NCBI GenBank assembly: GCA_016280635.1
Contig: JAEEHC010000039.1
Span: forward strand, 1 to 64,000
Length of the DNA stretch: 64,000 nucleotides
Origin: Erysipelotrichaceae bacterium
Lineage (GTDB): Bacteria > Bacillota_I > Bacilli_A > Erysipelotrichales > Erysipelotrichaceae
Direction: 5' to 3'
The position numbers were made by a program, and so were the translations under genes. Position 1 is the first letter of the stretch; each line of letters starts with the position of its first letter. The notes beneath the pieces were generated by a model. It worked only from the letters and a program-made list of their open reading frames with translations. It was not told where the DNA came from and made no database searches. Shown here in pieces: positions 26,314-61,560 of the stretch.

Positions 26314-26340
26314 AAAATAAAACCGGGATATGTTCCCGGC
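26314..26340 (-). terminator. Intrinsic terminator (attenuator) in the met leader
   Basis: On the minus strand CCGGGA, loop ACATA, TCCCGG (plus 26323-26339) and then TTTTATTTT. It lies between the leader peptide and metQ, so transcripts ending here would not reach metQNI. Confidence 0.8.
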
Positions 26341-26376
26341 TGTTTGCTTTGTCAATGCTTACCAAGAGAACATATC
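26327..26376 (-). promoter_or_regulatory. Antiterminator pairing of the met leader
   Basis: Minus-strand GATATGTTCTC (plus 26366-26376) pairs over 11 bp, with one G-U, with GGGAACATATC (plus 26327-26337). The second arm covers the loop and part of both strands of the terminator stem, so the two structures exclude each other. The first arm shares two bases with the leader peptide stop codon, where a terminating ribosome would hide it. Confidence 0.7.
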
Positions 26377-26452
26377 AGTCATGCTTAAATGACATGCACA
26401 TGCGCATGTCCATAGCCATAGCCATCATCATAACAGACTGCTGTTTCTTCAT
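26375..26452 (-). CDS. Methionine-rich leader peptide of the metQNI operon
   Basis: 25 codons from ATG 26452 to TGA 26375. Met codons are at positions 1, 8, 9, 10, 12, 14, 16, 18 and 20: nine in all, eight within thirteen codons. AGGAGA stands at proper spacing before the start, and a promoter lies just upstream. Codons 15-21 also form a GACATGC/GCATGTC hairpin (plus 26391-26410) that could pause polymerase. Stalling at Met codons for lack of charged Met-tRNA would leave the antiterminator arm free and allow metQNI expression; completing translation would cover it and permit termination. The mechanism is inferred; the frame, codons and pairings are seen. Confidence 0.8.
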   Translation of the reverse strand: MKKQQSVMMMAMAMDMRMCMSFKHD

Positions 26453-26475
26453 GCTGATTCTCTCCTGTTATTTCT

Positions 26476-26504
26476 ACTTTAACACCTCGTAAGTCTGCAG
26501 GCAA
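26476..26504 (-). promoter_or_regulatory. met leader promoter
   Basis: On minus: TTGCCT (plus 26499-26504), 17-bp spacer, TAAAGT (plus 26476-26481) with TGT before it. The start of transcription would fall about 20 nt ahead of the leader peptide ATG. Confidence 0.65.
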
Positions 26505-61337: not shown

Positions 61338-61344
61338 TTGTTTA

Positions 61345-61560
61345 ACAGCCGTGAAGAGACCAAGTAGGCAGAAGCGGTTTCGTTACAGAGAGGCATCGGT
61401 TGGTGCGAGATGTCAGAAAAGTTCTGCTGAATCCACCTTGGAGCTGGAAGCTTTGCTTCCCGGGTAAAACCGTTATCTAATTAAGAAACCGGAGAAATCC
61501 GGATAAAGAAGGGTGGCACCACGAGACATCGTCCCTTTACGGATGATGTCTTTATTTTTT
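61345..61560 (+). promoter_or_regulatory. T-box riboswitch, serine type
   Basis: About 215 nt upstream of serS. The T-box AGGGTGGCACCACG is at 61510-61523. The variable base is C, which matches the G discriminator of tRNA-Ser. AGTAGGCA after the first arm resembles the AGUA/loop-E region, and TCC at 61432-61434 is a candidate serine specifier codon. The terminator is GACATCGTCC/GGATGATGTC (61525-61550) followed by TTTATTTTTT. Uncharged tRNA-Ser would stabilise the antiterminator and raise serS expression. Confidence 0.9.

Follow-up and report, generated by a model that had tools for sequence, protein, structure and literature searches.

A putative methionine-reading leader-peptide attenuator and a second conserved short reading frame ahead of a circularly permuted metQ in Erysipelotrichaceae

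How might methionine uptake be adjusted to supply when the RNA ahead of the transporter genes resembles none of the catalogued methionine sensors? This question is raised by the metQ-metN-metI operon in the window, the whole 64,000-nucleotide stretch of Erysipelotrichaceae DNA that was analysed. Peptide attenuation by codon content is known for tryptophan and histidine. Along the minus strand of the window, a short Met-rich reading frame (ORF1) is followed by two mutually exclusive helices, an intrinsic terminator and then metQ-metN-metI, and our analysis indicates that ORF1 with the helices behind it is very probably a ribosome-mediated transcription attenuator through which the charging level of elongator tRNA-Met is read. 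The genes downstream, all on the minus strand, are metQ (26178-25330), which encodes a circularly permuted methionine-binding lipoprotein recognized by a profile match and by its structural relatives; metN (25326-24322), encoding the methionine ABC transporter ATPase with a C-terminal NIL domain (TIGR02314, 7e-98); and metI (24335-23637), encoding the permease (NF008049, 2e-57).

The leader starts with a candidate promoter on the minus strand (26504-26476) composed of TTGCCT (26504-26499), a 17-nt spacer and an extended -10 element, TG-T-TAAAGT (26484-26476). An earlier sequence-only reading had placed a promoter here; the motif is present, but it is weak, falling below the cut-off of a consensus scan, and is the weakest element of the leader. 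ORF1, MKKQQSVMMMAMAMDMRMCMSFKHD (26452-26375, minus strand), opens with an ATG at 26452 behind the Shine-Dalgarno sequence GGAGAG (26465-26460) and runs for 25 codons to a TGA at 26377-26375; nine of the 25 codons are Met, eight of them within codons 8-20. The 5' arm of the antiterminator, GATATGTTCTC (26376-26366), has the G of this stop codon as its first base, and it pairs with the 3' arm, GGGAACATATC (26337-26327), in an 11-bp helix with one G-U pair that none of 300 shuffles matched in quality. The 3' arm overlaps the 5' arm, the loop and the start of the 3' arm of the intrinsic terminator (26339-26314), which consists of CCGGGA-ACATA-TCCCGG (26339-26323) followed by TTTTATTTT (26322-26314) and is supported by sequence, terminator scan and fold. 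Because terminator and antiterminator share bases they cannot coexist, and their folding energies are -12.0 and -14.1 kcal/mol, respectively. The same reading had described the Met-rich frame with its Shine-Dalgarno sequence, and a stop-overlapping arm whose 11-bp pairing disrupts the CCGGGA/TCCCGG terminator; the frame was borne out base by base, and the arm by coordinates, shared bases and energies. A further pairing, between the arm GATATGTTCTC and the Shine-Dalgarno/start region of ORF1 (GGAGAG with its flanks), is predicted at -19.8 kcal/mol (duplex calculation, window only), stronger than the antiterminator, and according to this calculation it would act as a classical protector that hides the arm in untranslated RNA.

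We infer that ORF1 is translated, that ribosomes stall on it, that transcription ends at the terminator, and that these events change with methionine supply. When Met-tRNA is ample, the ribosome would proceed to the ORF1 stop codon and cover the arm that begins inside it; the terminator would then form at 26339-26314, and transcription would end before metQNI. Under Met-tRNA shortage, the ribosome would stall on the Met codons of ORF1 and leave the arm free to pair with the 5' arm and loop of the terminator, so that RNA polymerase would read through into metQNI. Without any translation of ORF1, the Shine-Dalgarno region would pair with the arm and the terminator would form (super-attenuation, as in trp). 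The geometry derived from the coordinates, with standard toeprint distances as the ribosome footprint, agrees with this scheme: a ribosome whose A site holds the last Met codon (26395-26393) reaches to about 26383 and leaves the arm at 26376-26366 free, and one whose A site holds the stop codon reaches to about 26365 and hides the whole arm. Methionine is the one amino acid whose shortage also strikes translation initiation, through initiator fMet-tRNA. Methionine shortage would thus lower fMet-tRNA and with it initiation on ORF1, which together with the protector favours termination and gives less read-through at severe shortage. It is possible that the switch works only at moderate methionine shortage, and this effect on initiation may also explain why such attenuators are rare.

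A metQ of this kind is present in all seven genomes of the genus, and the Met-rich ORF and the terminator are kept in all seven as well as in G139, a genome of another genus; the G124 contig begins inside the leader, so its ORF1 is partial. In each of the eight genomes, a helix of 8-11 bp joins the stretch between positions -7 and +14 of the leader stop codon to the loop and 5' portion of the genome's own terminator, with five different arm sequences among them, namely GATATGTTCTC, GTCTGATAAT(C), (A/G)CGTCTGAT, GTCCGAGTG and TCCGATGT. Taken singly, these helices lie partly within chance (shuffle p from 0.00 to 0.15 across the eight genomes); taken jointly, and with their changed sequences, the eight appear hard to explain without selection. 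The sequence-only reading had suggested comparing the metQ upstream regions of relatives, and that comparison came out in its favour, with frame and terminator kept in all of them and the stop region complementary to its own terminator despite the changed sequence. Among 316 genomes of the order, the layout of leader plus a second conserved short frame (ORF2, discussed below) is limited to the genus and G139; other pattern matches in those genomes were read as unrelated sequence, and a profile search of the genomes with the leader peptide, which is too short for a profile, recovered two of the seven genus members. The permuted metQ of G139 (L034), with leader and ORF2, sits in a genome labelled as the other genus g24, whose relatives are without these elements, and this copy would be a transfer or a misbinned contig.

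The same arrangement extends well beyond the family. Scanning the MetQ alignment against 84,980 species genomes gave at least 80 loci (L057-L136), mostly in Oscillospiraceae and other Clostridia. A Met-rich ORF led by a Shine-Dalgarno sequence precedes metQ in 29 of these 80 clostridial loci, and a terminator follows within about 110 nt in all 29, among the matches listed; the strict leader is absent from the other 51, likewise among the matches listed, and about five of the further loci have weaker leaders. The leader also occurs in a cultured bacterium, Oscillibacter sp. ER4 (L086). As a control, 954 upstream regions of other genes in the same loci yielded six Met-rich ORFs, two of them with a terminator, and both of these were antisense to metN-type genes. 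Counting non-start ATGs in 36 leaders gives 276 in the leader frame versus 14 and 2 in the other frames, and since Met-richness was the selection criterion, 276 versus 16 shows the frame and is not independent enrichment. The arm of the clostridial leaders lies mostly within the last codons of the leader rather than after it. A Met-rich leader with a terminator also occurs before metY (L187, L221, L222) and before a metN identified from its sequence (L191). When 20 leader-bearing clostridial genomes were searched for further Met-rich leaders, matches with zero to two mismatches were taken as known metQ leaders (two of them re-read), and matches with three mismatches were taken as chance.

It seems that leader and terminator have changed together in these loci. 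In a swap test on 35 loci (two near-duplicates dropped; stop region defined as -30 to +25), the stop region of a locus fitted its own terminator 5' arm better than those of other loci by 1.8 kcal/mol, and none of 20,000 permutations was as good (p = 5e-5), which indicates covariation between the arms of leader and terminator; for a control region upstream of the leader the advantage was small, 0.7 kcal/mol (p = 0.04). Because the loci are related, the p-values of this test and of the next one overstate independence. Co-transcriptional engagement was computed at the point where RNA polymerase has just made the loop. With the ribosome stalled at the last Met codon, the terminator 5' arm was paired upstream with a probability of 0.66, compared with 0.52 in shuffled RNA (p = 2e-4). 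The corresponding value with the ribosome at the stop codon was 0.29 (computed, mean of 37 loci), a contrast that is partly trivial because less RNA is then free. Equilibrium folding gave a mean terminator probability of 0.92 for a ribosome stalled at the middle Met codon and 0.97 for one at the stop codon; it is a poor test because terminators dominate, and its place was taken by the engagement and swap tests. Since equilibrium often favours the terminator, the switch at many loci depends on prior formation of the antiterminator. At some loci (e.g., L058, L071 and L134) the antiterminator is weak or not evident, and duplex shuffles and z-scores for single loci were mostly not significant.

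Sequence and comparison together establish the frame, the terminator, the exclusive helix, their covariation, their placement relative to the stop codon and the association with methionine genes. The attenuator interpretation, which the sequence-only reading had put forward, is strengthened by conservation in relatives, complementarity to the own terminator, the swap test, the ribosome geometry and the methionine-transport genes downstream. Features beyond that reading are ORF2, the protector pairing, the wide distribution and the circularly permuted MetQ.

The permutation can be read from the alignment of MetQ with Pfam NlpA, in which residues 28-163 of MetQ correspond to NlpA positions 98-233, and the N-terminal half of NlpA corresponds to MetQ residues 184-280. 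Moreover, all 22 listed relatives of solved structure match MetQ in two stretches, with the order swapped wherever the alignment is shown. By these alignments, the MetQ of the window has the NlpA/MetQ fold in a naturally occurring, circularly permuted form. The permuted form is widespread in Oscillospiraceae, as the at least 80 clostridial loci indicate; the literature searched holds no report of it, and we know of none. In the MetQ tree, the window protein falls in a supported 21-row set, in which 7 rows are from the genus group and 9 are leader-bearing clostridial sequences, which suggests joint transfer of gene and leader. Leader presence requires 17 changes on this tree versus 29 when shuffled, so the leader has often been gained, lost or moved.

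In other genera of the family, a T-box whose specifier position reads ATG stands ahead of metQ (L009, L010, L012, L013), and two permuted-metQ loci (L069, L077) likewise have a T-box with an ATG specifier in place of the leader. The occurrence of a Met-specific T-box at the same spot in other genera means that two sensors of tRNA-Met replace each other at this operon. At L077, a TwoAYGGAY RNA (RF01731; 3724-3888, minus) was observed on the opposite strand between the Met T-box and metQ. The genome of the window has twelve T-box matches, and the 11 readable ones all precede aminoacyl-tRNA synthetase genes (identities judged from protein starts), including metG (L143); the only one in the window is an ordinary T-box before serS (61342-61539, plus strand; RF00230). 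A SAM-I riboswitch precedes metK in this genome and genus, so that a single genome appears to use three methionine-related RNA sensors: the leader attenuator, the T-box and SAM-I. Another SAM-I riboswitch was seen ahead of a 300-aa protein (L151; G000 C65:26810-26900).

The alternation with T-boxes also bears on whether ORF1 might matter as a protein. Met/Cys-rich short peptides can bind metals, and MCM motifs are found in many clostridial leaders, which would suit a small protein with a function of its own, such as a Met/Cys-rich peptide that handles copper or heme and whose gene ends at the terminator. However, the peptide is hardly conserved apart from its Met spacing (29% mean column identity), whereas its place before metQ, metY or metN and the overlap of the arm with the end of ORF1 are conserved, and at other loci a T-box takes its position; we regard this explanation as very improbable and continue to favour attenuation.

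Between the terminator and metQ lies a second short frame, ORF2, MLSRLIKANYHGKRMCRQEKRNQKAEQFR (26295-26206, minus strand), with a GGGGG-type Shine-Dalgarno sequence and an in-frame CGA-ATG at 26256-26251. CGAATG is the commonest hexamer at -200 to -40 of 88 permuted-metQ genes (41 loci), and in 39 of 42 cases it lies in frame within an ORF led by a Shine-Dalgarno sequence, versus two in each other frame. A degenerate pattern, N-[FYW]-R-x-G-R-M, occurs about 98 times among 394 genomes of one clostridial order, in 88 of them, and the reversed pattern occurs once; matches in L212-L215 lie inside a protein gene and were set aside as chance. The copies read stand mostly before metY (28 of 40 in the second batch), and others precede metN, either form of metQ, and a gene for a sulfate-binding protein. 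The start lies 16 codons ahead of the CGA in most copies, and the consensus is MxxxFEKLLRxNFRFGRM followed by a stop, Cys or Trp, with N-[FY]-x-x-x-R-M as the core motif (the metY set was chosen by the peptide pattern, and the metQ set by CGAATG only). The first two codon positions are conserved and the third is variable, from which translation of ORF2 is deduced, and CGA-ATG is invariant in nucleotides. Judged by this codon pattern, ORF2 would be translated into a conserved peptide, with an arrest peptide as the likeliest kind, and would probably be a second, separate translation-based control of the metQNI operon. At six loci (L211, L217, L218, L236, L242 and L246), a long antiterminator-like hairpin has its 5' arm just behind the ORF2 CGAATG and its terminator partner further on; as a lead only, a ribosome stalled on ORF2 would mask or open this hairpin. 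No hairpin sequestering the ribosome-binding site was obvious by eye after ORF2 in the window.

At 11 metQ loci ORF2 occurs in the absence of ORF1, at 15 loci ORF1 occurs in the absence of ORF2, and by this distribution the two look like separate, combinable modules. One might hold that the real regulation occurs at ORF2 and that ORF1 with its terminator sets a basal level only, considering that the ORF2 peptide is more strictly conserved, manages without ORF1 at the former loci and stands before many metY genes; yet ORF1 at the latter loci has covarying switch helices without any ORF2 behind it, and we give this account very little credence beside a regulatory ORF1. Tentatively, and short of our favoured expectation, tandem sensors may be operating before metQNI: a Met-codon attenuator together with a new family of ORF2 arrest peptides that would sense methionine, SAM or another sulfur metabolite and control a sulfur regulon (metY, metQ, metN and sulfate transport) across Clostridia and, by transfer, Erysipelotrichia.

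Compared with Rfam, the leader has no family match even at E = 10 (the sole hit, of 6 bits, is meaningless), and it matches neither RF00230 (T-box), RF00162 (SAM-I) nor the covariance models of the Trp, His, Thr and Leu leaders. The least probable explanation, that the leader RNA is an unrecognised SAM or methionine aptamer riboswitch with ORF1 incidental to it, draws on the SAM-I riboswitches before metK in the genus, but it is opposed by this result and by the fact that relatives conserve the in-frame Met repeat and the stop-linked arm instead of any aptamer sequence.

If attenuation by ORF1 is correct, codon counting extends to methionine, whose shortage also hits initiation, and the feasibility of such a switch becomes testable. 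The methionine genes of gut Clostridia and Erysipelotrichia gain a candidate regulator in places that Rfam leaves blank, and a single operon would show T-box and peptide attenuator replacing each other as readers of the same tRNA. ORF2, in turn, suggests that sulfur genes are under a widespread form of control by peptides that is apparently unreported.

The sequence-only reading knew of no described methionine peptide attenuator, and our full-text literature search, to which subscription journals largely lie outside so that absence is not proof, also found none. A survey of Actinobacteria reports methionine operons without an RNA regulatory structure (PMC1262725), and the amino-acid leaders in a 2013 survey of cis-regulatory RNA families are only His, Trp, Thr and Leu (PMC3766115). 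According to a study of Firmicutes hisS and hisZ, histidine leader peptides replace T-boxes there (PMC2965389); the metQ leader is similar in replacing T-boxes and differs in amino acid and genes, and the passages considered name no methionine leader peptide. The Met-specific T-box (RF00230) shares with the metQNI leader the signal, tRNA-Met charging, and the place before metQ in other genera, but it binds the tRNA directly, whereas the leader would sense it through the translating ribosome. The SAM-I riboswitch (RF00162) also controls methionine-related genes; it binds SAM and is absent from the metQNI leader.

ORF2 is comparable to the arrest peptides TnaC and SpeFL in being a short uORF whose conserved peptide ends near the stop codon, with genes of one pathway downstream. 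It differs in that CGA-ATG is invariant at the nucleotide level. We know of no sequence relation of ORF2 to either peptide, and it is possibly a new kind of control, apparently unreported. ORF1 has closer counterparts. In common with the trp, his, thr and leu leaders (RF00513, RF00514, RF00506 and RF00512), it is an ORF rich in control codons with a stop-linked arm, and the metQNI leader shares with these attenuators the opposition of antiterminator and intrinsic terminator, target genes for the same amino acid and, as a prediction for the window, a possible protector. It differs from them in its amino acid, whose tRNA pool also starts translation, and in having no Rfam match. With a control-codon ORF led by a Shine-Dalgarno sequence, an intrinsic terminator, a covarying antiterminator, computed exposure of the arm and genes for the same amino acid, it shares these features with classical attenuators, and it appears to be a methionine version, which we have not found described before, of this known attenuator type.
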